A DNA stretch of 64,000 nucleotides from Dyadobacter sp. MSC1_007 (GTDB lineage: Bacteria; Bacteroidota; Bacteroidia; Cytophagales; Spirosomataceae). The stretch is taken from contig NZ_JAMOZL010000005.1 in assembly GCF_023667495.1 (NCBI RefSeq), forward strand, positions 62,001-126,000, written 5' to 3'. Of this stretch, positions 2,037 to 64,000 are shown piece by piece. The notes beneath the pieces are model-generated. The model had not been told where the DNA came from. It made no database searches and worked only from the letters and a program-made list of their open reading frames with translations. The translations under genes were made by a program, and so were the position numbers. The first letter of the stretch is position 1. Each line of letters begins with the position of its first letter.

Positions 2037-2808
2037 GAGATCCTCTTATTTCCCTGACCCAATTGTCTTTATCCGAGATTTTTGACCAATTTTTGGTGGC
2101 ACGGTTAATGAGGTCGTTGAGGTATCTTTCATTGAAATCAGGCGTGTAGTCGACCAATTCGATGAATTTAAGGGAAGATGTGTCGATTTCCCCGGTATGC
2201 GCATGTTGCCTTCCGGCGGCTCTTATTCCAAAAGTCTTGTAAAGCAAATTATCGTTGTAGGCTTGCAAAAAGCTAATGGGAGTCTGTATGCGCAAGGAGC
2301 CGTAATCTTCTGTTAAAATGTGGATGTTGGCTTTGTCTTTGCCCCCTGCATTGGTAAGCTTACCATAGAAGTAAAACTCGCCTTCCACCCATACGGTTTC
2401 TGAACGATAGAAATGGGTCTGCTTGTCAATCTTTAAGACGTTCGAATGATCAACGGACGTCGAGATATTGAATACATAATCATGCCTGAGCGCGATATCC
2501 TGAATGCTTTCAAGAGCTTTCGCAGAGGGGAAGTCGAGAAAATCGATACTTCCGGACTCAGTAACCTGACCCATCACCGCATTGAATCCAATGATGAATT
2601 GAAGCGAGGTCCTGAAGAGGTGTCGTACAGACCCTTCCTTTATTTCGTAGCTGATAGTAGGTCTGTTCGTTCTATCTACCGGATACAACAAACTCTCGGC
2701 ACTTTCCAGCAACGCGATTACTTCGCGAATATCATAGTTTTCAGGGGACAAGTCGAAGTTGCCCTTTGACCCTGATATCTTGATTTCGAGAAATCCGATG
2801 CTTTCCAT
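2026..2808 (-). CDS. Unrecognised 260-residue partner of the PIN protein
   Basis: A soluble 260-residue protein with no signal peptide or membrane segment. I do not recognise its family. It looks like a mixed alpha/beta protein with many beta strands (for example the VWVEGEFYFYGKLTNAG stretch) and a charged C-terminus. It overlaps the PIN gene by 11 bases and is transcribed first, which is the usual order for an antitoxin gene. It lacks an obvious short DNA-binding N-terminus such as a ribbon-helix-helix or AbrB fold. It may neutralise or guide the PIN protein, but nothing in the sequence proves this. Confidence 0.7.
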   Translation of the reverse strand: MESIGFLEIKISGSKGNFDLSPENYDIREVIALLESAESLLYPVDRTNRPTISYEIKEGSVRHLFRTSLQFIIGFNAVMGQVTESGSIDFLDFPSAKALESIQDIALRHDYVFNISTSVDHSNVLKIDKQTHFYRSETVWVEGEFYFYGKLTNAGGKDKANIHILTEDYGSLRIQTPISFLQAYNDNLLYKTFGIRAAGRQHAHTGEIDTSSLKFIELVDYTPDFNERYLNDLINRATKNWSKISDKDNWVREIRGSHET

Positions 2809-2869
2809 ACATTAAATATAGCGAATTTATTAAACCAGGCCTTACCCGACCTTTTCAAAAGTCATACAG

Positions 2870-5800
2870 CTACTTGGCAACCGCTTTCAACCTTACACCT
2901 TCGCTATGCGCTGTAAATTCCGGTGCGTACATGCATTGGATTGTTGTGATGCCATTGCTGAAATCGCCTTCGTGCGTTACGAAAAGGAGATATTCGAATA
3001 CATAAGTTCCTTTTTGTAGTGCATTGAAGAAGAAGTTGGTACTGGCATCGCGGGTGCTTTCATAATAGCCGAGACCGCCCTGCCAGCGATAACCGCTTAG
3101 TACGTTCACAGGTTCGAGGGCCGATGCCCGCATGTCCTTCATGTGCACGTATTCCATATCACGGTCGACGCGTAATTCGATTCTGACTTTGATTTTATCC
3201 CCGATATGCACGGCATCGGCCTCGCCGATAGGCGTTAAAACCGGTCCTGTGTCGGTGTTTTTCTCTATAAACAGCTTCTTAACCAGTTTTAAAGGCGTTT
3301 CGGCAAATGTGATTTTATCCAGATCTTCAAAATACTGCCAGTAAACAGCGCCCCAGCTTGGCATTTCCTTACCACCCATGGAGGCGTCCACACTTACACG
3401 CACATTACCCATGTCCAGGGTGAGAGTTTGGGCTTGCATTGTTTTTTTGAAATAGCCAGTACCGCTTTCCGCTTGCTGGTCTGCCGGTTTTATTTCTGTT
3501 TTTCCAAGGCTAATTGTGACAGCGGGACTTTCGGCCAGCCAGTAATTACCCTGCATTAGCAATGCGTAACAAGCTTCCGCGGTAGCCTTCGTACTTTCCC
3601 AATTGTTGGTTTGCTTGTTTTTCAACAACCAGGTTTTGAGGTCGTTCACGGTACTGGCATCATTACTTATTTCCTGAAAAGCTTCGATTAATAATGCCTG
3701 GCGTTCGATAGGTGCCTCGTGCCACCACCAGCCGCGTTGATTGGATTTCCAGTACATACCCAGTTCTTCGTTTTGGATAGCGGTTTGCCGCAAGGATTCC
3801 AGGATCTGTTTCGCAGTTTTGGGATCATTGGCACGGTGGGCTATTAAGGCAACCAGTCCTTGAAGCATCTTCGACTGACTGACCCACGTCGCAAAAGCCC
3901 GTTCCCGATAATATTGATATGCCTTTTGAGAAGTCTGAGCGATGGGTTTTTCAGGATAAAAGCTTCGCATGTATAAGTAATGCAGTTCCAGTGGCCCTGG
4001 TGTATACTTGGCAAGATCGGATTTCCACTTGACGAGCTCCTTGTAATCTTCTTCAATGCGTTTGTCCAGATAAGGAATTGCTTTTGCAAGAATGGCCTCC
4101 AGCATGTTTTGTTGATCGGTAGGAAGCGCATTCATTTTTTTTAGATGACCGATGCCCGTGACGATGTATTGGGTCATATAGCGATCGTCGGGCCCGCCTT
4201 TGAACCAGACGAAGCCGCCGTTCGGGCTCTGCATTTCCTGTAATTTGCGAAGACTGGCATCCAGCTCGCGGCTCATTTTTACGAGATTGAACAACATTGC
4301 GATGTTCTGCTTTTGCTGCGCCTCCGTTTTGGCAGTCAATACCCATGGCGTTTCCGTAAGCAGCAGCGATTTCAATTCCTGATTTTTAGCCAGATTGCTT
4401 TGCAATGCAGTCGTATCGCTGTTTTTCCAGGTTTCGAACACCTTAGCGATCCGCGGCGAACTCCGGACAATGGACGCAGCTAATGCATTGGCATAATACC
4501 GGTTCCAGGTTTGTTCGGCGCATTCGTACGGATATTCCATCAGGTACGGCAACGCCTGGATCGCATACCAGGCTGGATTGCTGGTATATTCCACGGTAAG
4601 CGACTGATGTGCAAGAGTAGCCGATTTTTCCGAAGCCAATAACTTTTCGAACGTGAAATTTTTTTGGCCGTTTCCACGCATCGATAAGGGCATACTTTCC
4701 GTCACAAGCATGCGATTAGGTAGTACGGGCAGGATGTTTTCTTCACCGTCGGATAAGTTTCCGGCCTTTGCGATGGCCGTCCACGTAATCGTTTTGGTAA
4801 AGTTTTTGGGTATTCGAATCGCAAATACAATTGTTGCGCTCTGTTTTGCCTGAATATTGAACTGCTTTTCCGGTGTTGCATGGCCGAATGCTGCGTTTAG
4901 ATCTTCATTAGTCTCCGTGTCTTTCAATTGGAGCGTAACAGAACCTTTTAACTCGCGATCAGTAAGGTTTACGATTTTTACAGGAAAGCTGAGCTTGTCG
5001 CCTTCGCGGAGAAAACGGGGCGCATTCGGCTGAACCATTAAATCCTTTTGTGTTACGATCTCCTTAGAACTGTAACCTACGGCGAGGTCTTTGGTGTGGG
5101 CGAGTGCCTGAAACTTCCATTTCGTGAGCGCTTCGGGCATAGTGAAGGAGAATGTAATGTTGCCTTCGCTGTCTGTTAGAAGGTTTGGCAGGAAGAAGGC
5201 GGTTTCGTTGAAATTGGTGCGGATAGACAACTTTTCGGCAACTGATTCCTTGGTTACCGCATTACGTGATACACCATAACCCACCTTTACAACCTCAACA
5301 AGTTTCTGGTCACCTCCCACGGCGAATAGCTCGTCTTTCTCTTCCGCTTGCATTGGAGCGGCCTGCGGTACTGATTCTTTATCGTAAAGTACCTCCGGTG
5401 TTAGAACCCTTCGCATATCTCTCGATCGCCCGCCGCCCGCGGCGCTACTCGGTCTTGGGGGAAAATCATTCCAAGATACTTCTAGCAACTGATCATAGCT
5501 TTTACCAAATGACTTATAATTTCCAAAAGCCACATATTTAACGTCGCTATCGCCAAATCCAAAGTTTTTATCTTTGATCCAATGTTTCAATTCTCCTTGT
5601 GCGTGCCACCAATAAGGCTTTTGCCAGCGATGATACTGGAACTGGTCGAGCGATGCGTCGTACATGCTGGTCAGCATTTCAGTAGCAACCTTTTCCTTTT
5701 TATAACCACTGATCTTGACTTTCCATGTTTCCTTGCTACCTGGTAATGTCTTGTCCCTGAATGTTTCATATTCAATATGCAGGTCCTTGTTAGTCCAGGG

Positions 5801-51832: not shown

Positions 51833-52999
51833 ATGATCAAAAAAACTATGAAAAATTTTATCGGAGTACTGGCATTATGCACACTGATTTTTTTAGAACC
51901 GGCCCTGGCCCAAACGGAGAATAAACTTCCGGATTGGACTTTTGGTGGTTTTAAGCGACCGGCTAAGGTTAACCCGGTTATTTCCCCGGACACTACGTCG
52001 ACTTTCTTCTGCCCGATGAACAAGCGGCAGATCGACTGGGAGTCCAACGATACATTCAATCCCGCCGCGACGATCAAGGATGGTAAAATTGTTGTGCTTT
52101 ACCGGGCCGAAGACAAGGCCGGAAAGGCGATCGGAATGCGGACGTCCAGGCTTGGCTATGCGGAAAGTACGGACGGAATTCATTTCAAAAGAAGAAAAGA
52201 GCCTGTTTTGTTTCCGGCTGAGGACGGACAAAAAGCCAACGAATGGCCCGGAGGTTGCGAAGATCCGCGTGTTGCGGTGACCGAAGACGGCCTTTATGTG
52301 GTCATTTACACACAATGGAACAAAGATAAAGCCCGCCTAGGCGTGGCCACTTCCCGTGATCTCCTCAAATGGGAGAAGCACGGCCCGGCATTTCAAAAAG
52401 CTTACAACGGGAAGTTCAACAATATTTGGACAAAATCCGGCTCCGTGGTCACAAAACTGGTCGGAGACAGGCAGGTAATCGCGAAAATTAATGGTAAATA
52501 CTGGCTGTATTTTGGGGAAGCCAATGTAAATGTCGCCACATCGACAGACCTCGTCAACTGGGAGCCGATGGTAGACTCGAAGGGCGACCTTATCAACCTC
52601 ATTTCCCCCAGAAAAGGCTATTTTGACAGTAACCTCACCGAATGCGGCCCTCCGGCGATCGTGACCGAAAAGGGTATCGTGTTGCTTTACAATGGTAAAA
52701 ACGACAAAGGAGAAGACGGCGACAGGCGCTATACACCCAACAGCTATTGCGCGGGACAGGTGTTATTCGATAAAAACGACCCGACGAAAGTGCTTGCACG
52801 ACTGGACACGCCGTTTTTCAGGCCGATGGAGCCATTCGAAAAAAGCGGTCAATATGTGGCCGGGACGGTTTTCATTGAAGGCATGGTGTATTTTAAAAAG
52901 AAATGGCTGCTATATTACGGCTGCGCCGATTCACGCGTGGGTGTAGCGGTGTACGACCCGAAAGTGAAGGCGCCGGGCGATCCCATTCCCGCAAACTGA
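51833..52999 (+). CDS. Exported GH130-family mannoside phosphorylase/hydrolase
   Basis: A 388-residue beta-propeller enzyme of glycoside hydrolase family 130, which includes mannosyl-glucose and mannooligosaccharide phosphorylases and also 1,2-mannosidases. The signal peptide (FIGVLALCTLIFLEPALAQ) places it outside the cytoplasm, which favours hydrolysis over phosphorolysis because free phosphate and sugar phosphate use are cytosolic. GGCEDPRV and TECGPPAI are family motifs, and the repeats FHFKRR-like blade patterns are visible. A second start at 51848 is equally good. It is the first gene of the sugar locus, with about 155 bases between it and the DUF1080 gene. Confidence 0.88.
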   Translation: MIKKTMKNFIGVLALCTLIFLEPALAQTENKLPDWTFGGFKRPAKVNPVISPDTTSTFFCPMNKRQIDWESNDTFNPAATIKDGKIVVLYRAEDKAGKAIGMRTSRLGYAESTDGIHFKRRKEPVLFPAEDGQKANEWPGGCEDPRVAVTEDGLYVVIYTQWNKDKARLGVATSRDLLKWEKHGPAFQKAYNGKFNNIWTKSGSVVTKLVGDRQVIAKINGKYWLYFGEANVNVATSTDLVNWEPMVDSKGDLINLISPRKGYFDSNLTECGPPAIVTEKGIVLLYNGKNDKGEDGDRRYTPNSYCAGQVLFDKNDPTKVLARLDTPFFRPMEPFEKSGQYVAGTVFIEGMVYFKKKWLLYYGCADSRVGVAVYDPKVKAPGDPIPAN

Positions 53000-53154
53000 T
53001 CCGCAGGCAGGTCAGTACAGGATAGTGCAACAGATATTTTTAGGAATTTTTGGATATTAATTTCTGCTTTTTTAAGAGTATTGATATTCAGATTACTCTT
53101 GCAATAAGGGAAGTCAATAGTTCAGAAGTCACTAAACCTATAAATAGAACCACG

Positions 53155-53922
53155 ATGAGTTCCAGATTTATCAAAGCCGGAATGCTGATGACCATTCTGA
53201 TGACCGTTATTTGCCAGGTCAACAGTTTTGCACAGAAAAATGAGAAAGGATTTGTATCCATATTCGATGGAAAAACGCTGAAAGGCTGGGATGGCGACCC
53301 GAAATACTGGAGAGTGGAAAATGGTAGCCTGGTGGGAGAGATCACACCGGAAACGCTTCTTAAAACAAACTCATTCATCATCTGGCGTGGCGGCGAGCCC
53401 GGAGATTTCGAGTTGAAAGGCTCATTCAAAATCGCTACTGCCGGAAACTCAGGTATTAACTACCGCAGCGAGCAACTCACGGACGTTCCATTTGCATTAA
53501 AAGGCTATCAGGCCGATATTGACGGGAAAAACAACTATACCGGTCAGAATTACGAGGAACGCAAGCGCACGACATTAGCTTATCGTGGTCAGAAAACGGT
53601 CATTAAAGAATATACAGGCGAAAAAACGCCGGAAGCTGTTCGCGCTAACGTCGCAAGGAATGCGTGGAAAGGCTTCGAAGTAGTAGGTTCACTGGGTTCT
53701 TCCGACTCTTTGAAGACACTGATCAAAAGCGAGGATTGGAACACATTCCATCTCGTGGTGAAAGGAAACCATTTGCAGCATTATATCAATGACGTGCTCA
53801 TGAGCGATGTAACGGACAACGATACCGTGAATGGAGCCAAAAAAGGTCTTTTGGGCGTACAGGTTCACGTAGGTCCGCCTATGAAGGTTGAATACAAAGA
53901 TTTGAGAATCAAACAATACTAA
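53155..53922 (+). CDS. Exported DUF1080 protein (3-keto-disaccharide hydrolase domain)
   Basis: About 255 residues from the ATG at 53155 (a longer frame starts at TTG 53050). A signal peptide (AGMLMTILMTVICQVNSFAQ) is followed by the concanavalin-like beta-sandwich of DUF1080, with FVSIFDGKTLKGWDG, YWRVENGSLVGEIT, and the C-terminal GLLGVQVHVGPPMKVEYKDL. Members act on 3-keto glycosides, formed by Gfo/Idh/MocA or GMC dehydrogenases, by cleaving or hydrating them. It precedes the epimerase and ThuA genes with small gaps, so it likely works on the same sugar. Confidence 0.92.
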   Translation: MSSRFIKAGMLMTILMTVICQVNSFAQKNEKGFVSIFDGKTLKGWDGDPKYWRVENGSLVGEITPETLLKTNSFIIWRGGEPGDFELKGSFKIATAGNSGINYRSEQLTDVPFALKGYQADIDGKNNYTGQNYEERKRTTLAYRGQKTVIKEYTGEKTPEAVRANVARNAWKGFEVVGSLGSSDSLKTLIKSEDWNTFHLVVKGNHLQHYINDVLMSDVTDNDTVNGAKKGLLGVQVHVGPPMKVEYKDLRIKQY

Positions 53923-53966
53923 TCAAAAATCGGCTGGCGGCCTTTGGCTGCCGGCTTAATGCGCTT

Positions 53967-54818
53967 ATGAATAAAATTGGATTTAATGTGCTGGCCTGGA
54001 CGGCAGCAGTTTCGGATGATCTGTTCCCGATTATTGAGAGATTAAAAGGAATTGGCTACGATGGTGTCGAGTTTTACCTGGGCCCGCAGGAAGCATCCGC
54101 CTATCAGCGCATGGGCAATTTTACGAAGGATCTTGGTTTGGAAACTACCACTGTGATGACAGTCGGTAAGGATGATAACCCGGTTAGCGAATCCGCAGAA
54201 GTGAGGCAACGGGCTTTGGATAAAATCAAATGGGCCGTAGACCGGGCGCACGATGTGAATTCGAAAATCATTTGCGGGCCGTTCCATTCGGGGCATACTG
54301 TTTTTGTAAACCGTCCGGCCGAGGACCGCGAATATGCGCTGGCAGGTGAGGTATTGAATGCAGCGGCGGATTACGCAGCACAAGCCAACATTACTTTTGC
54401 TTTGGAAGCACTCAACCGCTTCGAATGCTACCTGTGCAATACCATGGAGCAATTGCTCAAATTGGTAAAAGCCGCCGACCATCCGAATGTACGGGCGATG
54501 TTCGATACGCACCATTCCAATATAGAAGAGAAAAAATTTTCGACGGCATTGCAAACCATTGCCCCGGTGCTGGCCCACGTGCATATCAGCGAAAACGACC
54601 GCGGCACTCCCGGCGACGGGCAGGTGCTGTGGGACGATGCATTTTCATCTCTGGCCGCCATCAAATACCAGGGTTGGCTCACGATTGAAGCGTTTTCGAG
54701 GAACGACCCGGCTTTTGCCAATGCGATCGGTGTATGGCGTGAATTCTCGGATCCTTGGGACATCGCTGAAAACGGCTACCGGTTCATACGTGAAATGAGC
54801 CTGAAACATGGCCTTTGA
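53967..54818 (+). CDS. TIM-barrel ketose 3-epimerase-like enzyme
   Basis: A 283-residue cytosolic sugar isomerase of the xylose-isomerase-like TIM-barrel type. The metal ligands match D-tagatose/D-psicose 3-epimerases: Glu147 in ALEALNRFE, Asp180 in MFDTHHSNIEE, His206 in AHVHISENDRG and Glu241 in LTIEAFS, each about 5 residues before the equivalent residue of the Pseudomonas cichorii enzyme (from memory). This strongly suggests a ketose or keto-glycoside C3 epimerase. It lies 44 bases after the DUF1080 gene and 32 bases before thuA-like, in one operon. The exact substrate is unknown. Confidence 0.88.
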   Translation: MNKIGFNVLAWTAAVSDDLFPIIERLKGIGYDGVEFYLGPQEASAYQRMGNFTKDLGLETTTVMTVGKDDNPVSESAEVRQRALDKIKWAVDRAHDVNSKIICGPFHSGHTVFVNRPAEDREYALAGEVLNAAADYAAQANITFALEALNRFECYLCNTMEQLLKLVKAADHPNVRAMFDTHHSNIEEKKFSTALQTIAPVLAHVHISENDRGTPGDGQVLWDDAFSSLAAIKYQGWLTIEAFSRNDPAFANAIGVWREFSDPWDIAENGYRFIREMSLKHGL

Positions 54819-54850
54819 TCGTCCCAAAAATCATTTTTCTGTCTTGATCT

Positions 54851-55921
54851 ATGAATAATATCCTGAAATCGGTGCTGTCATTCGGCATTGCATTGCTCAT
54901 TTTCGCCTCTAATGTCATTGCTGACAATACTTCGAAGCAAGACGATCCGGCCAAATACCGCGTAGTTTATAAAGGCGATAAAGGTCCGGGTGTAGGAAAA
55001 AATATCGTTTTTATCGCAACCGATCACGAATACCGAGGCGAGGAATCGCTGCCTGCGCTCGCGCGGATTATGGCGAAGCACTATGGGTTTACGTGTACGG
55101 TCGTGTATGCGCTCGACGACAATGGTAACATCCTGCCCGGCAGTTCCAATGTAAAGGGGCTTGATGTGCTCGATAAGGCTGATCTGCTGGTCATGTTCAT
55201 GCGTTTTGCGCATTTCGAAGACAAAGAAATGCAGCATATCGACAACTACCTGAAACGCGGCGGTCCGATTGTGGCATTCCGGACTTCTACCCATGCGTTT
55301 GAGATCAAAAACGACCCGAAATGGGAGCATTACGGCTGGGACTACAAAGGATCGAAAACGGAATGGAAGGATGGTTTCGGAGAATATATCCTAGGGGAAA
55401 CATGGGTTTCGCATTATGGGACCAACCATAAGCAGTCATCCAAACTGATCATCGACGAGGCACAAGTGAAGAACCCGATCATGCGCGGCGTGAAAGACAT
55501 GTGGGTGCAATCGGGAGGATATACAACTTATCCGAAAGGCACCGTGCTTGCCAAAGGGCAGGTACTGAACGGCATGACCGCCACTTCGGCACCCGACCCG
55601 ACAAAAGAGCTGCTTCCCGTGGCCTGGATCAGGGATTACAAAGTGGATGGCGGTAAAACAGGCCGGGCATTTACAACGACGCACGGCGCTTCCGAAGATA
55701 TCCTGAATGAAGGATTCAGAAGAATGGTCGTGAATGCGATGTACTGGGGGCTGGGTATGGAAAAGGATATCAAACCTGACAACGATATTGCATTTGTAGG
55801 CCCATATAAACCTACGACCTTCAATTTCAGTGGTTACAAGGCTAATGTAAAGCCGTCGGACCTGGCGGGTTGGGATTCGCTGATTATGCCAGGTGAAATC
55901 GTGAAAAAGAAGGGTAAGTGA
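54851..55921 (+). CDS. Exported ThuA-domain protein
   Basis: A 356-residue protein with a signal peptide (VLSFGIALLIFASNVIADN) and a ThuA domain (glutamine-amidotransferase-like fold, residues 45-320). Blocks include IVFIATDHEYRGEESLPALA, DLLVMFMRFAHF and GGPIVAFRTSTHAF, and a late KTGRAFTTTHGASEDI. ThuA was named from trehalose utilisation genes in rhizobia and is linked with 3-keto-sugar metabolism; its reaction is unclear. It sits in the middle of the sugar operon, 32 and 29 bases from its neighbours, and joins the group of exported members with GH130 and DUF1080. Confidence 0.92.
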   Translation: MNNILKSVLSFGIALLIFASNVIADNTSKQDDPAKYRVVYKGDKGPGVGKNIVFIATDHEYRGEESLPALARIMAKHYGFTCTVVYALDDNGNILPGSSNVKGLDVLDKADLLVMFMRFAHFEDKEMQHIDNYLKRGGPIVAFRTSTHAFEIKNDPKWEHYGWDYKGSKTEWKDGFGEYILGETWVSHYGTNHKQSSKLIIDEAQVKNPIMRGVKDMWVQSGGYTTYPKGTVLAKGQVLNGMTATSAPDPTKELLPVAWIRDYKVDGGKTGRAFTTTHGASEDILNEGFRRMVVNAMYWGLGMEKDIKPDNDIAFVGPYKPTTFNFSGYKANVKPSDLAGWDSLIMPGEIVKKKGK

Positions 55922-55950
55922 TTTTTTTGAATTAATAAATATCCACATTA

Positions 55951-56778
55951 ATGTCGCAGCAACTCCCATTCCGTTTCGGATCAGAAGTATACACCTGGTT
56001 TATGAGCAACAACGGTCAGACTCACCAGGGCCGGTTAGGACACATGATTGAAGTCATTGCAAAAGCAGGTTTTAAAGGTATTCAGCCAATTTTTACCTGG
56101 ATGGGTGACCTGGTCGATCCAGATAAGCTTGAAGCGAAACTAAAAGAGCAGGGCATTGAACTCGCAGCGCTGGCACTTGCATTGGATTGGAACGAAGCAG
56201 AGGAAACAGATCGGGAGCGCGAAGTAGCAGACCACGCCATCCGCGTGTTGCAACGCTTTCCGGGCGCTGTATTAAACACAGTGCAAATCCCAACAGGCCG
56301 TCATGAACTGGCGGAACGTCAGAAAAGATTGGTCAACATCGTGAATACGGTTTCCAGAAGGGCGGCAGATAAGGGCGTTCCATGCAGCTATCATCCCAAT
56401 TCCCCGCATTCATCCATTATCCGTACGGAAGAAGACTACAAAATAGTACTGGAATCGCTGGATTCGTCGGTTACCGGCTGGACGCCGGACGTAGGCCACA
56501 TTATCAACGGCGGCATGGACCCGCTTGCGAAAATGAAGGAATACCAGTCACTGATCAACCACGTACATTATAAGGATTGGGATGGAAATCCTGAGTTTGC
56601 ATTAATGGGGAAAGGAAAAGTGGATTTGCTTGGTGTAACGCAGTGGTTGAAAGATATCAATTACAAGGGCTGGATCATCTGTGAGGATGAAGGCGAAGAA
56701 GCATTGGAAGATCCGGATTTCGTGACTTTGCATGACGGCAAATGGATACAGCAGGATTTGATCCCAAAATTGAAATAA
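55951..56778 (+). CDS. TIM-barrel sugar isomerase/lyase-like enzyme (IolE-like site)
   Basis: A 275-residue cytosolic TIM-barrel protein of the AP-endonuclease-2 type. The site residues differ from an epimerase: at the place of the first metal Glu there is His148 in CSYHPNSPHSS, as in inosose dehydratase (IolE)-like enzymes. The remaining ligands appear as Asp180 in TPDVGHI, His206 in NHVHYKDWD and Glu245 in IICEDEGEE. This points to a dehydratase or lyase on a keto-sugar rather than a simple isomerase (inference). It is followed by an alpha/beta hydrolase after 7 bases. Confidence 0.85.
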   Translation: MSQQLPFRFGSEVYTWFMSNNGQTHQGRLGHMIEVIAKAGFKGIQPIFTWMGDLVDPDKLEAKLKEQGIELAALALALDWNEAEETDREREVADHAIRVLQRFPGAVLNTVQIPTGRHELAERQKRLVNIVNTVSRRAADKGVPCSYHPNSPHSSIIRTEEDYKIVLESLDSSVTGWTPDVGHIINGGMDPLAKMKEYQSLINHVHYKDWDGNPEFALMGKGKVDLLGVTQWLKDINYKGWIICEDEGEEALEDPDFVTLHDGKWIQQDLIPKLK

Positions 56779-56785
56779 CCACGCA

Positions 56786-57598
56786 ATGCCGACTATCAAA
56801 ACAAACGGTATCAACTTTTATTATGAGGAGCGCGGTTCCGGGGAGCCGCTGCTGCTGATCATGGGAATTACCGCACCCGGCACCGTGTGGAATGTGCACG
56901 TGGCGGACTGGAAGCACCATTTCCGATGCATTATCGGGGATAACCGGGGCGTGGGGCTCACTGACAAGCCTGCTGGACCCTATTCAACCGAGCAAATGGC
57001 GGATGATTATGCTGGTTTGTTGGATTCGCTGGGTTTGGAGAACGTCAACGTCGTAGGTTGCTCAATGGGAAGCACTATTGCGCAACAGCTTGCAATAAGG
57101 CATCCCGATAAGGTGAGATCGCTGGTGCTGATGTGTCCCTGGGCTCGGTGCGATAACTATGCAAAAGGCCTTTTCCAGCACATTATGAATGCCAAAGCGC
57201 GGTTCAGGCCGGAAGAGTTTAGTTTATACATCCAATTGCTGATCTATTCGAAATCGTCCTGGGACGATGCGCAGCAGCACGAAGACCTTGAAAACGGCAG
57301 AAGGGCCGACGGTTTTAATCCGTTTCCACAGCCATTACACGGTTTGGAAGGACAGGCAGCAGCGTGCATTAATCATAATGCATTGCCCGATCTGGGAGGG
57401 ATAAATAAGCCAACTCTCGTCATAGGAGGCAAGGTGGATATATTCACACCGGTATGGATGGCCGAGGAAGTTGCCAACGCCATTCCGGGAGCCGAACTTT
57501 TCCTTTACGACAAGCTCGGGCACGCATTCCATTTTGAAAATACGGAGGACTTTAATGCAAGAATCAGGAATTGGCTGGCAGCAGTGCCGGTAGTCTGA
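56786..57598 (+). CDS. Cytosolic alpha/beta hydrolase
   Basis: A 270-residue alpha/beta hydrolase without signal peptide. Oxyanion-side NLGITAPG-like segment LLIMGITAPGTVW, nucleophile elbow VVGCSMGSTIAQ (Ser93), acid in VIGGKVDIFTP and catalytic histidine in KLGHAFHFEN. Sequence relatives include 3-oxoadipate enol-lactonases and esterases. Located 7 bases after the IolE-like gene, it may open a sugar lactone made by the dehydrogenase in this locus. That is an inference from position only. Confidence 0.88.
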   Translation: MPTIKTNGINFYYEERGSGEPLLLIMGITAPGTVWNVHVADWKHHFRCIIGDNRGVGLTDKPAGPYSTEQMADDYAGLLDSLGLENVNVVGCSMGSTIAQQLAIRHPDKVRSLVLMCPWARCDNYAKGLFQHIMNAKARFRPEEFSLYIQLLIYSKSSWDDAQQHEDLENGRRADGFNPFPQPLHGLEGQAAACINHNALPDLGGINKPTLVIGGKVDIFTPVWMAEEVANAIPGAELFLYDKLGHAFHFENTEDFNARIRNWLAAVPVV

Positions 57599-57686
57599 GG
57601 GATGCATTTTTGTGAATAAAAGCATTAAAACAAGGCATTTTACGCCTTTTTCAGGTTTAGATAATTACCAGTTTAATTAATAAATA

Positions 57687-58784
57687 ATGGGGATTGCCGA
57701 TTCAAAAAGCGAAGAGCCGAAAAATCAGGATTGGATAACGAAAGTGTCGAATCACGCGCAAGTGGGCGGCATCGAAACTTCGGTGATCGATAATGGAGCT
57801 GGTCGCGGTACCCGCATTGCCTGGGTGAACACCGGAACCGGTTTGCGTTTTAAAGTGGTGATCGACAGGGCAATGGACATAGCGGAGGCATTTTATAACC
57901 AGCACAGCCTTGCCTGGCTCAGTCACGGAGGTATTACCTACCCGCAGCCTTTTTCCGACAAGGGTATTGACTGGCTGAGGACATTCGGTGGCGGGTTACT
58001 CACGACCTGCGGACTTTCACACGTCGGCGGACCGGAATCGGATCAATATGGCGACCGTGGTTTGCATGGGTTGATCAGCAATACACCAGCTGAAATTGTT
58101 TCGATTGTCCAGCCCGATTTGCGCGCAGGGAAGTATGATATGAGCATCACCGGCATTATCCGGGAAACGAAGCCATTCGGACCCAGCCTGGAATTACGAA
58201 GAACCATTTCCGCGACTTTGGGACAGCCTGGCATCCGGATCCACGACGAAGTGACCAATAAAGCCAATACACCGGCACCGCATATGCTGCTTTACCATTT
58301 CAATTTTGGTTGGCCGCTGGTGGATGAAGGAACCGATATTCTTTGGAATGGGAAATGGCACCCGCGGATGGGCGAGGAGAATGCAAAGATTTTCAAAGAA
58401 GGAAATGCATTCAGAAAAGCCCCGGGGCCGATCGACGACCATTTAGGAAGTGGCGAAGAAGTAGCATTGATCGACGTGGATGCCGATATTTTCGGTGACA
58501 GCATTTGCGGGTTGCATAACGAAAAACTCGGTTTGGCTGTCGCATTGAAGTTCAAAAAAGAACAATTACCGTGGCTGGCGAACTGGCAGCATTGGGGGCG
58601 GGGAGAATACGTAACGGGCATCGAGCCAAGCACCCATCCGCTCACAGGGCAATCGAAGGCGCGCGAGGACGGGACTTTGATATTCATTCAGCCGGAGGAA
58701 ACGCGGGTTTATGATCTGGAATTGAATGTGTTGACGGCGAAGGAAGACATTGAGGAATTTGAATTGAAGGTGAATGTGTTGTGA
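57687..58784 (+). CDS. DUF4432 family mutarotase-like protein
   Basis: A 365-residue protein with the galactose-mutarotase-like beta-sandwich of DUF4432. Visible blocks are SHGGITYPQPFSDKGIDWLR, GDRGLHGLISNTPAEIVS and MLLYHFNFGWPLVDEGTDIL, then LPWLANWQHWGRGEYVTGIE. Members are thought to interconvert anomers or epimers of sugars; no member in this context has a proven role to my knowledge. No signal peptide, so cytosolic. It starts 88 bases after the hydrolase gene and is followed by a repeat-containing gap, so it may end an operon. Confidence 0.88.
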   Translation: MGIADSKSEEPKNQDWITKVSNHAQVGGIETSVIDNGAGRGTRIAWVNTGTGLRFKVVIDRAMDIAEAFYNQHSLAWLSHGGITYPQPFSDKGIDWLRTFGGGLLTTCGLSHVGGPESDQYGDRGLHGLISNTPAEIVSIVQPDLRAGKYDMSITGIIRETKPFGPSLELRRTISATLGQPGIRIHDEVTNKANTPAPHMLLYHFNFGWPLVDEGTDILWNGKWHPRMGEENAKIFKEGNAFRKAPGPIDDHLGSGEEVALIDVDADIFGDSICGLHNEKLGLAVALKFKKEQLPWLANWQHWGRGEYVTGIEPSTHPLTGQSKAREDGTLIFIQPEETRVYDLELNVLTAKEDIEEFELKVNVL

Positions 58785-58790
58785 CGCTAT

Positions 58791-58944
58791 TGTCACCCTG
58801 AGCGCATCGGTTTGTCACCCTGAGCGCACCGATTTGTCACCCTGAGCGCAGTCGAAGGGTAATTGCGTGACGCCCATCATCCTTCGACTTCGCTCAGGAT
58901 GACAGTAACGGGCCGCAGGGCGGTGGATGGATGACAGTAACGGG
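58791..58944. repeat. REP-like intergenic repeat cluster
   Basis: Three direct copies of TGTCACCCTGAGCGCA start at 58791, 58813 and 58835. The third is extended to 58858 and pairs, with two mismatches in 24, with an inverted copy at 58881-58904. A 16-base direct repeat GGATGACAGTAACGGG occurs at 58897-58912 and 58929-58944. This is a stem-loop element of the kind scattered between genes in many bacteria. Confidence 0.85.
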
Positions 58945-59024
58945 TCAACAGACTATCGCAATTACACACACCAGTCAAAAATTTAACATAGTATCAACCA
59001 AAACCAATTTTTTAATACAAAACA

Positions 59025-60239
59025 ATGGGACTTTCAAGTATAGCTGAGAAGGCGTTAGAGCAGGGAAAAGGAATATTGCGTTTGGCCCCGACGTGGGTGC
59101 CGCGTTCATTTTGCGTTCCCGGCCGCAGGATCAAGTTACACCCGGATGACTATTATGTGCTGGGTGGCGAGCGCGGTGGAATCGATGAGCGCTGGTTGTC
59201 GTCAACCACACCTGCGGAAAACGGGCCGCTTACCGGCGAAAATGAAGGTTTGAGCCAAATCGTTTTTGAAGATGAATCGGGCGTTCAAAAAGTGACATTG
59301 CGCGATGCGGTAGAAGAGCTGAAAGGTCAGATTATAGGTGACAGACTTTGGGATCAATACAACAGCTGGCCCATGTACTCCAAGTTTTTTGACAATATGG
59401 GGCCGCTTCCGCATCATATTCACCACAGAGATGAGCACGCCGCTATGGTGGGCCAGAACGGAAAGCCGGAAGCCTACTATTTTCCGCCCCAACTTAACAA
59501 TCATGGTGGCGATTTTCCATACACATTCATTGGTATCGCTCCCGGCACTACCAAAGAGCAGATCAAAGAGTGTCTGATGAACTTCACCAAGGGTGACAAT
59601 AAGATTACTAATTACTCCCAGGCATTTCGTCTGGAGCCGGGAACAGGCTGGGATGTGCCCCCTGGCATGTTACATGCGCCGGGCAGTTTGTGTACCTACG
59701 AGCCTCAAAAAGCATCAGATATTTTTGCGATGTATCAATCGCTTGTTAATGAGGCCGTTATTCCGGAAGAGCTGCTTTGGAAAGGAACCCCGAAAGACAG
59801 AATTGGCGATTATGACTTGTTGATGGAAGTGATCGACTGGGATTTGAACGTAAATCCTAATTTGATGGAAAAGCATTTCATGCGCCCCAAACCGGTAAAA
59901 GATGTCGCTGTGATGGCGGAAGGGGGATATAGTGAAAACTGGATTTGCTATAAAAGCGAGGCTTACAGTGCCAAGGAACTTACCGTTTTTCCCGGACAAA
60001 CTGTTACCATTAAAGACGCTGCTGCGTACGGAATGATCGTGATGCAAGGCCACGGCAAGTTTGGTGTGTGGGATATCGAAACACCCGCACTGATCCGCTA
60101 CGGACAACTTACCCATGATGAGTACTTCGTTACCGAAAAAGCAGCGATCGAAGGTGTAACGATCTCGAACCCATCGAAATCCGATCCGATTGTGATACTA
60201 AAACACTTCGGCCCTGAAAATCCTGATCTGGTATTGTAA
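59025..60239 (+). CDS. Cupin protein, class I mannose-6-phosphate isomerase-like
   Basis: A 404-residue cytosolic double-cupin protein. A metal site is suggested by His131-x-His133 in LPHHIHHRDEHA, Glu149 in KPEAYYF and His217 in VPPGMLHAPGS, as in class I phosphomannose isomerases and D-lyxose isomerase-type cupins. The C-terminal half has a second cupin without metal residues (ELTVFPGQTVTIKDAAAYG). It probably isomerises an aldose/ketose pair in the sugar pathway. It starts 81 bases after the REP-like element, with 123 bases of repeat-like gap before the next gene. Confidence 0.8.
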   Translation: MGLSSIAEKALEQGKGILRLAPTWVPRSFCVPGRRIKLHPDDYYVLGGERGGIDERWLSSTTPAENGPLTGENEGLSQIVFEDESGVQKVTLRDAVEELKGQIIGDRLWDQYNSWPMYSKFFDNMGPLPHHIHHRDEHAAMVGQNGKPEAYYFPPQLNNHGGDFPYTFIGIAPGTTKEQIKECLMNFTKGDNKITNYSQAFRLEPGTGWDVPPGMLHAPGSLCTYEPQKASDIFAMYQSLVNEAVIPEELLWKGTPKDRIGDYDLLMEVIDWDLNVNPNLMEKHFMRPKPVKDVAVMAEGGYSENWICYKSEAYSAKELTVFPGQTVTIKDAAAYGMIVMQGHGKFGVWDIETPALIRYGQLTHDEYFVTEKAAIEGVTISNPSKSDPIVILKHFGPENPDLVL

Positions 60240-60362
60240 ATTCCAGAAGTCGCCTGATTCGTCGGAGGCACCTACGGAGCCCAATCCTGATTCGGGAATA
60301 TTTTGCTAGAAACAGAAGGCACCTCCGGCGCCGTTGATTTTAAACCCAATATCTCTTAAACC
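60240..60362. repeat. Repeat-like intergenic stretch before the 60363 gene
   Basis: Contains imperfect inverted units GTCGGAGGCACC (near 60259) and GGCACCTCCGGCGCC (near 60319) plus GATTCG repeats. The composition resembles dispersed intergenic repeats of Bacteroidota, but I cannot verify other copies. No gene or promoter consensus was seen. Confidence 0.4.
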
Positions 60363-61394
60363 ATGCCTGAAAATAATTATCCCAAACTTCACAATGCCAC
60401 ATGGCCTGGCATTGTTGGAAAAGGTCCTGATTCGGAACCTGTGATCCCATTTGATACCATGCTGAAAATGACGGCTGCTGCGGAAGTGGACGGCGTGAAG
60501 TTTGATGGTGTCGATATCGGCCTTTTTGATCCTCATATCGATCTGGATATGAGTGATGATGGTATCAAAGCCCTTGCTGATAAAGTGGGCGGTTATGGTC
60601 TGTCAATCGGCAGTCTGGTGGCGCCTATCTGGGGCGGACCTGCAATGGGCAGCAAGGAAGAGCGTGCGACCTTCGTGGAAATGGTGCGCAAAGCCTGCGT
60701 TTTTGGTAAAAAACTGAATGACCTCGGTATCCGCAAATATGGCGTTGTCCGCATTGACTCCGCCAGCAAACCGGAAGCCTGGGCGCAAGATCCTGCGGGA
60801 AATACTAAACTTATTGCTCAAACTTTCCGCGAAGCATGTGATGTAGCTGCCGATTTCGGCGAAAGCCTCGCTGCAGAAGGTGAAATCTGCTGGGGTGGAA
60901 TGCATTCATGGAAAGCGATGATCGACACCATGGAAGCTGTTGAGCGTCCAAATATCGGTTTCCAGGCTGATATGTCGCATACTTTGCTTTATCTGCTGGG
61001 CTACAATAGTCCCGAAGACCGTATCCTGCCGGTGGATTTCGATTGGAACGACCGCGCAACCCTGGATGCCGGCCTCAAAAAACTGACAGCTGCATTGCGT
61101 CCATGGACAATCGACTTCCACGTAGCACAAAACGACGGAACTGTTCACGGACAAGGCTCGCACGATAAAACAGGCCGTCACTGCCTGGCAACCGACCCTA
61201 ATGGCAAACTGGACATTGCTCACCACGCCGGTTTCTGGCTTCGTGACGAGAACGGCGACCTTACGAAGCGTTTCAAGCACATTTGCTGGGATGGCTGTAT
61301 GTTCCCGAACCCGGTGATGGAAAACCAGCAGACCTGGAACGACATTCTGGCTGCGCTGATCAAAGTGCGCAATGCGCATGGGTGGGTAGCTTAG
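60363..61394 (+). CDS. TIM-barrel sugar phosphate isomerase/epimerase-like protein
   Basis: A 343-residue cytosolic protein of the xylose-isomerase-like TIM-barrel superfamily, larger than the two at 53967 and 55951. Likely metal ligands are Glu174 in [10 protein letters not shown], Asp203 in [13 protein letters not shown], and His253 in [15 protein letters not shown] histidine/glycine-rich loop ([13 protein letters not shown]) is unusual and may bind substrate or a second metal. It lies between the cupin gene and the Gfo/Idh/MocA gene, so it is probably a step in the same pathway. It is not an obvious paralogue of the other two barrels. Confidence 0.85.
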
Positions 61395-61515
61395 GGCTGT
61401 AAGCTGTACGCTATAAGCTGTATACGCGTACAGTCCAGAGCCTGAAGCGATTTCTAAAATCTCTAAAACCAAAGGCTTAAAGCTTACAGCCTAAGGCCTA
61501 AAGCATCAAAAAACA
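61395..61515. repeat. Inverted-repeat intergenic stretch
   Basis: TTAGGGCTGTAAGCT at 61391-61405 and AGCTTACAGCCTAA at 61481-61494 are inverted copies with one inserted base, and related units (TAAGCTGTA, GGCTTAAAGC) lie between. It could fold as a long stem between two genes of the sugar locus. Confidence 0.6.
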
Positions 61516-62676
61516 ATGTCAAATAAAAAAGAAATCAGAATAGGATTGATCGGGACCGGTTTGATGGGCCGGACGCATTCCAATGGTTATAAAAGGATAG
61601 GTGATTTTTTCCCTGAGCTCGAATATCGTCCGGTTTTGAAGGCCGTATGTTCACGTAACGAAGAGAAAGTGAAGGCTTTCGCGGAGCAATGGGGCTACGA
61701 GTCGGTGGAGACTGACTGGAAAAAAATCATCGAGCGTGAAGATATCGATGCCGTGGACATTTGTACACCAAATGATACGCATGCAGAAATTGCTATTGCA
61801 GCTGCGGCCGCGGGTAAAATGATCCTTTGCGAAAAACCGCTGGCGCGGACTTTGGAGGAAGCTAAAACAATGGTTGACGCCATCGAAAAAGCGGGCGTTC
61901 AGAATACGGTATGGTATAACTACCGTCGGGTTCCTGCGGTTACGCTGGCGAAACAAATTGTGGATTCAGGCAAACTGGGGCGCATTTTCCATTACCGTGC
62001 CAACTTTTTGCAAGACTGGACCATTAACCCGGATGTGCCGCAAGGCGGAACGGCAACGTGGCGCCTCGATGTAGACGCGGCAGGATCCGGCGTGACCGGC
62101 GACTTGTTGGCGCATTGCATTGATACTGCTATGTGGATCAATGGAGGCATTAAGGATGTGTCGGCTGTGGCTGAGACATTCATCAAGGAGCGCAAGCATT
62201 CGGATACCGGTCAGGTACAGAAAGTGGGTATCGACGATGCCTGTATTTTTCACTGCCATTTCGATAACGGTTCGTTAGGGCTTTTCGAATCGACGCGCTA
62301 TGCGCGCGGCCACAAGGCTCTTTATACTTTTGAAATTAATGGGGAACATGCCTCTATCCGCTGGGATTTGCATGACCTTAACCGCCTGGAATATTTTGAT
62401 CATAACGACGAATCGATCGTACGCGGTTGGAGGTCCATTCTGGTAACCGATAGTGATCAGCCTTATATGAAGAGATGGTGGATTCCCGGCACCAGCATTG
62501 GTTACGAGCATTCATTTATCCATCAAGCAGCTGATTTCTTTGAAAGTCTGCAAACAGGCGAACCCTGCCGGCCGACATTTAAAGATGCTTACGAAACCCA
62601 AAAGGTTTGTGAGGCGGTACTCGCATCTGCGGCTTCGAAAAGCTGGAAGGATACCGGTGTGACCTGGGAAGGGTAA
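61516..62676 (+). CDS. Gfo/Idh/MocA-family NAD(P)-dependent sugar dehydrogenase
   Basis: A 386-residue cytosolic oxidoreductase. The Rossmann motif is [17 protein letters not shown], the catalytic lysine motif ILCEKPLA follows near residue 103, and the substrate-side histidine is in [13 protein letters not shown]. Members oxidise sugars or cyclitols, often at C2 or C3, and commonly partner with TIM-barrel isomerases and DUF1080 proteins. In this locus it is the best candidate for making the keto intermediate. No export signal (unlike the Tat-exported family members). It is followed by the ABC ATPase gene behind a long hairpin. Confidence 0.93.
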
Positions 62677-62698
62677 GATCCTCGAAATATATTAAACT

Positions 62699-62745
62699 AA
62701 GGCTTTAACCAGGTTTCGGCATACATGAAACAGGGTTAAAGCCTT
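62699..62745 (+). promoter_or_regulatory. Long hairpin between the dehydrogenase and ABC genes
   Basis: Perfect 12-bp stem AAGGCTTTAACC (62699-62710) / GGTTAAAGCCTT (62734-62745), extended past a 2x2 internal loop by GTTTC / GAAAC with a 9-base loop. It lies 14 bases before the ABC ATPase start. No T run follows, so it may be an attenuator, RNA-processing or stability element rather than a full terminator. Confidence 0.6.
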
Positions 62746-62759
62746 CTTCAAATTCTCCC

Positions 62760-64000
62760 ATGTCCGATTTTATTCTCAAAGTAAAAGGCCTCTCGAAATC
62801 CTTTTCAGGTGTCAAAGCGCTGGATAATGTCAGCTTTGAACTGAAAAGAGGGGAAGTGCATGCCTTAATGGGAGAAAATGGCGCCGGAAAATCGACTTTC
62901 ATGAAGAGCCTGATTGGTTTGGTGACACCGGATACGGGTGAAATCCTGCTGGAAGGAAAAAGTTTGACAGGTAACGATGTCAATGAAACATTGAAAAAAG
63001 GCATTTCCATGATTCATCAGGAAATCCTCATTGTTCCGGAGTTGACTGTTGCTCAGAATATATTTTTGGGAAGAGAAAAAGAGGCATCCGGAAAAAGTGG
63101 GTTGCTTGCTGGCTGGTTGAACGACTCGGTGATCAACACAAAGGCAGAGCAGCTTTTGACCGGAATGGGCGTCAATATCGCTCCGAAAGCGAAAATGAAA
63201 TACCTGAGCGTAGCGCAAATGCAAATGGTCGAGATTGCGAAGGCTATTTCCAACAATGCCAGGGTGATCATTATGGACGAACCTACGTCGGCAATATCCG
63301 ACAAGGAAGTTGCCGTGCTTTTCAGGATCATCCGAGACCTGAAAGCGAAAGGAGTTGGCATTATTTACATTTCGCACAAAATGGACGAGATTTTCGAGAT
63401 CTCGGACACTATTACCGTATTGCGCGATGGGAAATACATTGGAACCAAAAGCGCGTTCGACCTTGATCGGAGTTCGTTGATATCCATGATGGTAGGTCGG
63501 GAAATCGATCAGATGTTTCCCGAGCCGAGTCAGGGCAATGGAGAAGAATTGCTGTCAGTCGAGAACCTGGGCAGCAATGGGAAATTTTCGAATATCAGTT
63601 TTAAAGTGCGTGCTGGGGAGATACTGGGTTTAGCAGGTCTAATGGGCGCTGGCAGGACCGAAATAGCACGCACGATTTTTGGGCTCGATTCATTTGACGA
63701 AGGTCAGATTCAGATCAAAAACGATGCGGTAAGAATTCGCACACCACGGGAGGCTATTCGAAAAGGAATAGGGTACGTAAGCGAAGATAGAAAAGGGCTG
63801 GGGTTTATTCCCCGAATGTCTGTGAAAGACAATATGACGCTTTCGAGCATCGGTAACCACCGGAAAGGTGCGTTTATCGATCAGCGGAGCGAACAATCGG
63901 CAACGGAGCGGATGATCGCAGACCTGCGTATCAAAACATCCGGTACCCACCAAAAAGTGACTTATCTGAGCGGAGGTAACCAGCAAAAAGTGGTAATCGG
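62760..64000 (+). CDS. Ribose-type sugar ABC importer ATPase, partial at the window end
   Basis: The first 413 residues of a duplicated ATPase of the RbsA/MglA/XylG type, normally about 500 residues; it runs off the right edge without a stop. Start is ATG 62760. The first domain has Walker A GENGAGKST, signature LSVAQMQ (a variant of LSGGQ) and Walker B VIIMDEPTSA. The second half has the degenerate P-loop LGLAGLMGAGRTE and the signature LSGGNQQK, as expected for this family. It powers uptake of a monosaccharide with a membrane permease and binding protein that should be encoded just beyond the window. It places ABC import, not SusCD uptake, in this sugar locus. Confidence 0.95.
   Translation, partial: MSDFILKVKGLSKSFSGVKALDNVSFELKRGEVHALMGENGAGKSTFMKSLIGLVTPDTGEILLEGKSLTGNDVNETLKKGISMIHQEILIVPELTVAQNIFLGREKEASGKSGLLAGWLNDSVINTKAEQLLTGMGVNIAPKAKMKYLSVAQMQMVEIAKAISNNARVIIMDEPTSAISDKEVAVLFRIIRDLKAKGVGIIYISHKMDEIFEISDTITVLRDGKYIGTKSAFDLDRSSLISMMVGREIDQMFPEPSQGNGEELLSVENLGSNGKFSNISFKVRAGEILGLAGLMGAGRTEIARTIFGLDSFDEGQIQIKNDAVRIRTPREAIRKGIGYVSEDRKGLGFIPRMSVKDNMTLSSIGNHRKGAFIDQRSEQSATERMIADLRIKTSGTHQKVTYLSGGNQQKVVI

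Follow-up and report, generated by a model that had tools for sequence, protein, structure and literature searches.

A Conserved Bacteroidota Gene Core with a Possible Role in a Two-compartment Keto-glycoside Pathway Divided between Two Loci in Dyadobacter

Keto-glycoside pathways, among them the wider BT2156-2160-type 3-keto-glycoside pathway known from Bacteroides thetaiotaomicron, have lately come to be recognised as an alternative to the usual glycosidases, and whether such chemistry explains a sugar locus of mixed enzyme families is the question raised by a run of eleven genes in Dyadobacter sp. MSC1_007. These genes occupy positions 51833-64000 of the window, the 64,000-nucleotide stretch of DNA analysed here, which is contig NZ_JAMOZL010000005.1 (C5), 62001-126000, of a 7.45-Mb genome (Table 1). 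An initial annotation had placed all eleven on one strand, as the open reading frame (ORF) map confirms, and had seen in them a single sugar-catabolic locus fitted for keto-sugar chemistry and ATP-binding cassette (ABC) import. Five of the genes form a core that recurs across Bacteroidota, and the chances are about even that the C5 locus encodes the inner part of a keto-glycoside pathway spread over two compartments, with the outer half encoded on another contig of the same genome, C16.

Relatives of the locus were collected by scanning GTDB contigs with the cupin sequence, which gave at least 584 confirmed relatives; the sample was limited to the 80 best of them, each with flanks of up to 10 kb, and so favours close relatives. 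Counts given below for long loci refer to the 58 of these 80 that span at least 19 kb (19 labelled Dyadobacter by record title and 39 others), the 22 shorter ones being left out, and each gene was labelled by its best BLAST match over at least half of the query. The genes for a DUF1080 protein, a DUF4432 protein, the cupin, a xylose-isomerase-like TIM barrel (TIM3) and a Gfo/Idh/MocA dehydrogenase (GfoA) occur together in 56 of the 58 long loci, that is, in 18 of the 19 from Dyadobacter and in 38 of the 39 others; at one locus, L038, TIM3 escaped ORF calling but is found by tblastn at 82%. DUF4432 and cupin genes are adjacent in 37/39 non-Dyadobacter and 18/19 Dyadobacter loci, and the steps from cupin to TIM3 and from TIM3 to GfoA are each preserved in 36/39 and 18/19. 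Because the order DUF4432-cupin-TIM3-GfoA recurs across Bacteroidota, the grouping exceeds chance. The initial annotation had conceded that its single catabolic locus would be in doubt if the genes lacked shared conservation; the core is strongly conserved. Other genes of the C5 locus are accessory, with TIM1 in 12, the protein first labelled ThuA in 7, TIM2 and the alpha/beta hydrolase in 5 each, and GH130 in none of the 39 non-Dyadobacter long loci.

Among the matches listed, genera by record title include Dyadobacter, Larkinella, Spirosoma, Cyclobacterium, Daejeonella, Segetibacter and Zobellia. A further 14 loci beyond the 80 (L113-L116, L136-L141 and L143-L146), mostly more distant and with cupins of at least 70% identity, have DUF4432, TIM3 and GfoA alongside the cupin in 13 cases (the exception is L141) and DUF1080 in 11 (not in L138, L139 or L141, the contig of L139 ending after the cupin); L142, with a 50% identical cupin, is a contig of 3.7 kb. 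The cupin is found in 26/26 Dyadobacter genomes and in 5/295 genomes of a class-level sample at E 1e-120, this genome included; among the matches listed in the GTDB scan, the nearest named records are from Dyadobacter, with cupins 85-97% identical to the MSC1_007 protein. In a phylum-level sample, 18/296 genomes have a match at E 1e-10, nine of them at 74% identity or more (again including this genome), one at 50% and eight at 38-40%. Against 72,556 plasmid records the cupin gave one match, at 33% identity, and TIM3 gave none.

Outside Dyadobacter, the core commonly stands beside genes for outer-membrane uptake and oxidation. The 39 non-Dyadobacter long loci include SusC in 25, SusD in 26 and a dehydrogenase of about 900 residues with a cytochrome c domain (Cytochrom_C) in 36, and in 11 of them SusD, this PVC-type dehydrogenase and the importer RbsABC all lie next to the core. 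Neither SusD nor the dehydrogenase occurs in any of the 19 Dyadobacter long loci, and a SusC-SusD pair is absent both from these and from the genes around the MSC1_007 locus. In MSC1_007, SusC, SusD and the dehydrogenase lie together on C16 (101916-106355). The SusD there (104847-106355) is 81% identical to that of a relative from the same family (L116), with the next best in the genome at 46%; the dehydrogenase, 61% identical to the copy in L090, scores above the TIGR02603 and below the TIGR02604 cut-off. The system therefore owns a SusC-SusD pair, only the C5 locus being without one, and loss of the pair in MSC1_007, considered as an explanation, was rejected. The initial statement that SusC, SusD, kinase and regulator are missing holds for the eleven genes at the locus, among which none of the four was found; it does not hold for SusC and SusD of the system, because an orthologous SusC-SusD-dehydrogenase block lies elsewhere in the same genome, and in other genera such a block is found at the core locus itself.

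The separation of the two halves is a feature of the whole genus. Each of the 26 Dyadobacter genomes has one match to the dehydrogenase (E <=1e-150) and one to the cupin (E <=1e-60), on different contigs in 20 genomes and at least 1.5 Mb apart in the six where they share a contig. Because all 26 genomes hold the markers of both halves, never close together, the operon was probably broken before the genus diversified, with both parts kept. The undivided form can be seen in Rhabdobacter (L061), where SusD and the dehydrogenase stand in line with DUF1080-TIM1-'ThuA'-TIM2-hydrolase-DUF4432-cupin-TIM3-GfoA, which is the gene set of the C5 locus, minus GH130 and RbsABC, joined to the outer half. In L060 a front part similar to the C16 block, without SusC and SusD, is joined to the core. 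The split also extends beyond Dyadobacter, as the core has no outer part beside it in L143 (genome G190, another genus of the family) or in L073. Neighbours of the C16 block include a 475-residue twin-arginine (Tat) protein taken by eye for DUF1501, two Tat-type TIM barrels and a 785-residue protein that by eye resembles the planctomycete-cytochrome family and whose counterpart in L053 has PSCyt1, PSCyt2 and PSD1.

The window end cuts through the system at its import genes. RbsA runs past position 64000 and is followed by a permease, RbsC (PF02653), and a sugar-binding-type lipoprotein, RbsB, so that the permease and binding protein expected beyond the end were found there and the ABC importer is complete. 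The best NCBIfam match of RbsB, ribose RbsB, stays under its cut-off (178/337 bits) and names no ligand; most of its relatives in the PDB carry names of ribose-type sugar-binding proteins. RbsC is the safer measure of the importer across species, because the RbsA counts take in weak matches (24-26% identity in L065 and L097), and since RbsC occurs in 14/39 non-Dyadobacter long loci, ABC import is a recurring option at loci of this kind. No RbsABC was seen in the stretch covered at L113, L138 and L139; a conserved transporter of major facilitator superfamily type, about 82% identical to the L113 copy, lies divergently at the operon head in these loci and may replace it. Downstream of RbsB in MSC1_007, a small ORF on the opposite strand is followed by a Gfo/Idh/MocA protein (L009:3765-5135, just past the window end) whose N-terminus looks to the eye like a twin-arginine start. 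Its nearest family is that of BT_2158 glycoside 3-dehydrogenase, at 142/750 bits; it is present in 14/19 Dyadobacter long loci, with a copy of 71% identity near the operon in L115, and may serve the pathway as another oxidising enzyme in the periplasm.

No single observation speaks more for cleavage of a keto-glycoside than the presence of DUF1080 in all 58 long loci. The protein of MSC1_007 meets PF06439 with 123.7 bits (cut-off 26.8) and has weak PDB matches to solved members of the family (4jqt, E 1.4e-15; 8rr2 and 8tda, E about 9e-5). According to PMC9007349, the family includes the 3-ketotrehalose hydrolase BT2157, and one member, alongside LacABC, has an important part in the lactose use of Caulobacter, fitness data having led to its proposal as a periplasmic 3'-ketolactose hydrolase. 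The DUF4432 protein matches PDB entry 3ty1, a "hypothetical aldose 1-epimerase" (E 7.6e-22).

Fold comparison was most telling for the cupin, which has no Pfam match at E <=5. A model built from 28 sequences has a predicted local distance difference test score (pLDDT) of 91.6 and a predicted template modelling score of 0.91, and in a Foldseek search with it ranks 1-17 are all phosphomannose isomerases, the best being 1zx5 (E 3e-19; template modelling score by target 0.81). By sequence, a profile search gives only a weak match to 1qwr (E 0.0012), with H133, K147-P-E149 and H217 aligned to the corresponding motifs. Conservation was counted here and below among homologues of more than 55% identity (more than 40% for DUF1080) at 90% coverage: H131, H133, K147, E149 and H217 are each kept in 95/95 close homologues, and all five are invariant in the 28-row alignment, drawn from 99 homologues listed and including relatives of 36-38% identity. 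From what is known of the phosphomannose isomerase family, we take H133, E149 and H217 to be the metal-binding His/Glu/His set and K147 the catalytic lysine. The cupin thus shares the fold and the metal and catalytic motif of type I phosphomannose isomerases (1zx5, 1qwr, 3h1m) while being only 11-14% identical to them in fold alignments. Because of this fold and motif in the modelled protein, it is probably an aldose-ketose isomerase.

Remote relatives of the cupin occur in other settings, which on the whole fit an isomerase upstream of a ketose kinase. One (L112) is near an FGGY-like kinase by eye. Another, 33% identical and annotated as hypothetical (L158; Arthrobacter plasmid NZ_CP084551.1, 27538-28743), has as neighbours a ribose-type ABC importer, a ribose-5-phosphate isomerase and proteins of the dihydroxyacetone-kinase and triose-phosphate isomerase families, a cluster with the look of a tetritol pathway. 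A 38% identical relative beside a system that by eye is corrinoid-methyltransferase-like (L109:8407-12778) fits less simply.

The two remaining enzymes of the core are less sharply placed. TIM3 has no PDB match by sequence with phmmer at E 0.1, and a profile search reaches E 0.48 at best; compared with TIM2 by hhalign, it gives a probability of 0.4. In its model (pLDDT 86.0), Foldseek ranks the 2-hydroxy-3-keto-glucal hydratase AtHYD (8ro4) third and fifth by chain. VIA-align gives Z scores of 25.4 for IolE, 24.8 for IolI, about 24 for ketose 3-epimerases and 23.9 for AtHYD (rank 17), and because these scores are so close the fold is compatible with a hydratase, a dehydratase or an epimerase alike. 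E172, E174, D203, H253 and D310 are invariant in 84/84 sequences and could form a metal site. The alignment made of TIM3 has 31 rows, out of 83 homologues listed. GfoA has levoglucosan dehydrogenase (NF052479) as its best NCBIfam family. The structures closest to it are 4h3v, whose title leaves it uncharacterised, and 6a3f (E 5e-82), which we take to be levoglucosan dehydrogenase. K107, D196 and H200, presumably the usual catalytic set, are each kept in 81/81 homologues. An LQDW motif is common to GfoA, 6a3f and 4h3v, and NYRR to GfoA and 6a3f (TYRR in 4h3v), and both differ in the scyllo-inositol dehydrogenase 5ya8; W168 is kept in 77/81. Because the YRR and LQDW motifs match 6a3f and differ in 5ya8, the comparison favours a pyranose-ring 3-oxidoreductase over a cyclitol enzyme. 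Levoglucosan dehydrogenase is a C3-specific dehydrogenase (PMC7676230).

Taken together with the gene families, these assignments fit keto-sugar chemistry, as first proposed, and suggest a route across two compartments. SusC and SusD from C16 would bring a glycoside into the periplasm, where the cytochrome-c-linked PVC-type dehydrogenase would oxidise it to a keto-glycoside and the exported DUF1080 protein from C5 would cleave this product. RbsABC would then carry the freed (keto-)monosaccharide over the inner membrane. Inside, TIM3, as a hydratase/dehydratase or epimerase, and GfoA, as an NAD(P)-dependent keto-reductase/dehydrogenase, may restore or convert the sugar, with the DUF4432 protein as its putative mutarotase; the phosphomannose-isomerase-like cupin would turn the unphosphorylated aldose into a ketose, which could enter metabolism through a kinase encoded elsewhere. 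This reading rests on the gene families, the cupin fold, the co-conservation of the core, the split and the complete importer, from which all the reactions, the location of the proteins and the nature of the sugar are inferred.

The system resembles known oxidation-elimination-hydration-reduction pathways in how it would work; because the curated dehydrogenase cut-offs failed, it is not placed in any of them, and membership in a levoglucosan or BT2158/2159-type pathway was rejected on that ground. With the B. thetaiotaomicron pathway of BT2157 (PMC9007349) it has in common the phylum, a DUF1080 protein and a Gfo/Idh enzyme, but GfoA falls under the BT_2158 and BT_2159 cut-offs and the Dyadobacter system has a cytochrome-c-linked dehydrogenase, ABC import and a phosphomannose-isomerase-like enzyme. 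The lactose route of Caulobacter, with LacABC and DUF1080, likewise combines oxidation on the periplasmic side with proposed periplasmic cleavage of a 3-keto-disaccharide by DUF1080 (PMC9007349), but uses another type of dehydrogenase, whereas Dyadobacter encodes a dedicated importer and four inner enzymes. No description of the operon was found in the open-licence literature of PubMed Central. That the whole is a new route, joining c-type periplasmic oxidation, cleavage by a DUF1080 lyase or hydrolase, ABC import of a keto-monosaccharide and four inner enzymes, with a phosphomannose-isomerase-fold enzyme isomerising an unphosphorylated (keto-)sugar and with an operon broken in two in Dyadobacter and both loci kept by all genomes searched, is put forward tentatively and seems to us rather doubtful as a complete statement. 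What the comparison offers is an operon in many Bacteroidota genera that matches four unassigned inner enzymes with an importer in the outer membrane, a dehydrogenase of c type and an ABC transporter. The fate of 3-ketogalactose is left open in PMC9007349, and the joint activities of the cupin, TIM3 and GfoA would bear on what becomes of a keto-sugar after cleavage.

Several observations weigh against a keto-glycoside pathway with this core. In L141 (genome G355; cupin at 1799-3034), a 70% identical cupin stands apart from all the other core genes, which could mean that the protein can work by itself; its setting there includes branched-chain-type ABC genes by look. L138 keeps DUF4432-cupin-TIM3-GfoA but has no DUF1080 or dehydrogenase in 19 kb of sequence. 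Among the non-Dyadobacter long loci the dehydrogenase is missing in 3/39 and SusD in 13/39, and RbsC is present only in 14/39, so the outer half and the mode of import differ between species. For the individual proteins, the DUF1080 protein matched no NCBIfam family, and in Pedobacter none of ten DUF1080 genes gave a lactose phenotype (PMC9007349). The fold of TIM3 does not assign the enzyme to one activity, the inosose dehydratase family of IolE scoring slightly above the keto-glucal hydratase, and GfoA is under the cut-offs for levoglucosan dehydrogenase (346/650 bits), BT_2158 (38.3/750) and BT_2159 (44.1/650). Finally, internal promoters could fit into the gaps that precede the cupin (240 bp), TIM3 (123 bp) and GfoA (121 bp), and a Bacteroidetes-type promoter motif, searched for by its consensus, was not found before seven of the eleven genes or before SusC.

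Among other explanations, the one with most to be said for it is a pathway for an L-rhamnose-like sugar or its glycosides, in which a ketose made by the cupin or TIM3 would pass through an FGGY kinase to an aldolase of RhaEW type, the last steps in Dyadobacter coming from a chromosomal rhamnose locus. The aldolase family NF006189 is here equated with RhaEW. In Chloroflexus, RhaEW converts L-rhamnulose 1-phosphate to dihydroxyacetone phosphate and L-lactate (PMC3870299). In L140 (G336) the operon includes a kinase of FGGY type and a bifunctional rhamnulose-1-phosphate aldolase/dehydrogenase (NF006189, 1026 bits; cut-off 634). That of its relative L113 (G171) includes an aldolase of 83% identity together with a short ORF that by eye is FGGY-like (251 residues), and G171 has a second aldolase copy next to RhaI, at 16-18 kb from the cupin. 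Cupin and aldolase are also no more than 20 kb apart in G182 and G076 and some 44 kb apart in G299, and MSC1_007 has RhaI and aldolase on contig C3. Yet the L140 kinase is weakly rhamnulokinase-like (44.9/528 bits, with xylulokinase at 45.0), the flanks of only one named locus among the 80 (L085, Zobellia) include the aldolase, 10/15 genomes (some fragmented) lack one within 50 kb on the same contig, no aldolase was found in G333 and no RhaI match in G182, and the RhaI isomerase, kinase and aldolase of the L-rhamnose pathway are not among the genes at 51833-64000. The link was moreover sought after its sighting in L113 and L115, only G076 and G299 being found later, and the Zobellia neighbours, post hoc and 1/80, were rejected as proof of substrate. 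This explanation is unlikely. The mannoside clue of the initial annotation has faded further: that the locus degrades beta-1,2-mannosides, with GH130 releasing mannose or mannobiose, agrees with a GH130 above the BT3780 beta-1,2-mannosidase cut-off and with the mannose-6-phosphate isomerase fold of the cupin, but GH130 occurs in 16/19 Dyadobacter and 0/39 other long loci, 38 of these with the full core, and was rejected as substrate-defining for that reason; mannose, besides, would need no DUF1080, GfoA or TIM3. We regard it as highly improbable.

Two further explanations start from the dehydrogenase. If GfoA oxidised a cyclitol of inositol type, TIM2 or TIM3 would be an inosose dehydratase or epimerase and RbsABC a cyclitol importer, in keeping with inositol 2-dehydrogenase as the second-best family of GfoA (129.4 bits), IolE as the best of TIM2 (67.6 bits) and IolE structures (Z 25.4) heading the VIA-align ranking of TIM3, in which the keto-glucal hydratase has Z 23.9. 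Both family matches are under their cut-offs (355 and 290 bits), no IolC, IolD or IolJ assignment was made among the eleven genes, phosphomannose isomerases top the fold list of the cupin, and DUF1080, a constant of 58/58 long loci, would have no part to play in a cyclitol pathway, all of which makes it distinctly unlikely. An anhydrosugar pathway is slightly more improbable still. It would follow lgdA-lgdB1-lgdB2-lgdC of Bacillus smithii with an ABC importer, and the likeness extends to a Gfo/Idh enzyme of a related subfamily, the best curated family of GfoA being levoglucosan dehydrogenase, to two proteins annotated as sugar-phosphate isomerases, to adjoining sugar ABC transporter genes and to the oxidation-elimination-hydration-reduction logic (PMC7676230). 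Against it, GfoA misses the equivalog cut-off by nearly half; no second Gfo/Idh without signal peptide, which would take the role of LgdC, lies between 51833 and RbsB; and DUF1080, the cupin, SusC-SusD and the cytochrome dehydrogenase are not in the gene list of the lgd figure legend (PMC7676230), the Dyadobacter locus adding DUF1080, DUF4432 and the phosphomannose-isomerase-like cupin, and its relatives SusC-SusD and the c-type dehydrogenase.

Table 1. Genes of the C5 locus, in window positions, and of the importer beyond the window end, in the numbering of flanking stretch L009
Feature	Position	Strand	Basis or nearest family
Exported GH130, BT3780 beta-1,2-mannosidase family	51833..52999	+	NF058598 673.6 bits, cut-off 550
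Exported DUF1080 / 3-keto-disaccharide hydrolase family protein, core	53146..53922	+	PF06439 E 1.2e-35
TIM1, xylose-isomerase-like barrel	53967..54818	+	PF01261; nearest D-psicose 3-epimerase / IolO, NF051856 150.1 bits, cut-off 300
Exported protein, earlier label ThuA, label not confirmed	54851..55921	+	no Pfam family above cut-off, no PDB match
TIM2, xylose-isomerase-like barrel	55951..56778	+	PF01261; nearest IolE, TIGR04379 67.6 bits, cut-off 290
Alpha/beta hydrolase, accessory	56786..57598	+	PF00561 E 5.1e-31
DUF4432, aldose-1-epimerase-like, putative mutarotase, core	57687..58784	+	PF14486 E 2e-105
Cupin with type I phosphomannose-isomerase fold, putative isomerase, core	59025..60239	+	predicted model and Foldseek
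TIM3, xylose-isomerase-like barrel, putative hydratase/dehydratase or epimerase, core	60363..61394	+	PF01261, predicted model
GfoA, Gfo/Idh/MocA dehydrogenase, core	61516..62676	+	nearest levoglucosan dehydrogenase, NF052479 346.4 bits, cut-off 650
RbsA-type ABC ATPase, cut by window end	62760..64000	+	sugar ABC families, all under equivalog cut-offs
RbsA, end (L009)	763
RbsC (L009)	780-1727
RbsB (L009)	1787-2779

Ten of the eleven labels given at the outset stand, through Pfam, NCBIfam or the cupin model. The eleventh, ThuA, does not: the only Pfam match of that protein is to a different family and under the cut-off, and no PDB match was found at E <=1. Nor did any result favour the lactone opening once suggested, the alpha/beta hydrolase being an accessory gene. 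By eye, Sec-like N-termini are present on GH130, the DUF1080 protein and 'ThuA', and TIM1, TIM2 and GfoA are without a visible signal peptide. The intergenic gaps measure 7-146 bp as far as DUF4432 and then, in turn, 240, 123, 121 and 83 bp.

Some minor features of the relatives and of the locus itself may be added. In L138 (9089-17503) the operon goes on with a class II aldolase-like protein and several proteins that by eye are sulfatase-like, the latter hinting at sulfated glycans. Directly after the operon in Cyclobacterium (L089 and L107) lies a conserved cluster that by eye is ebo-like. Within the C5 locus, the 240-bp gap before the cupin (58785-59024) contains several direct TGTCACCCTGAGCGCA-like copies and an inverted counterpart, resembling a repeat of repetitive extragenic palindromic (REP) type.

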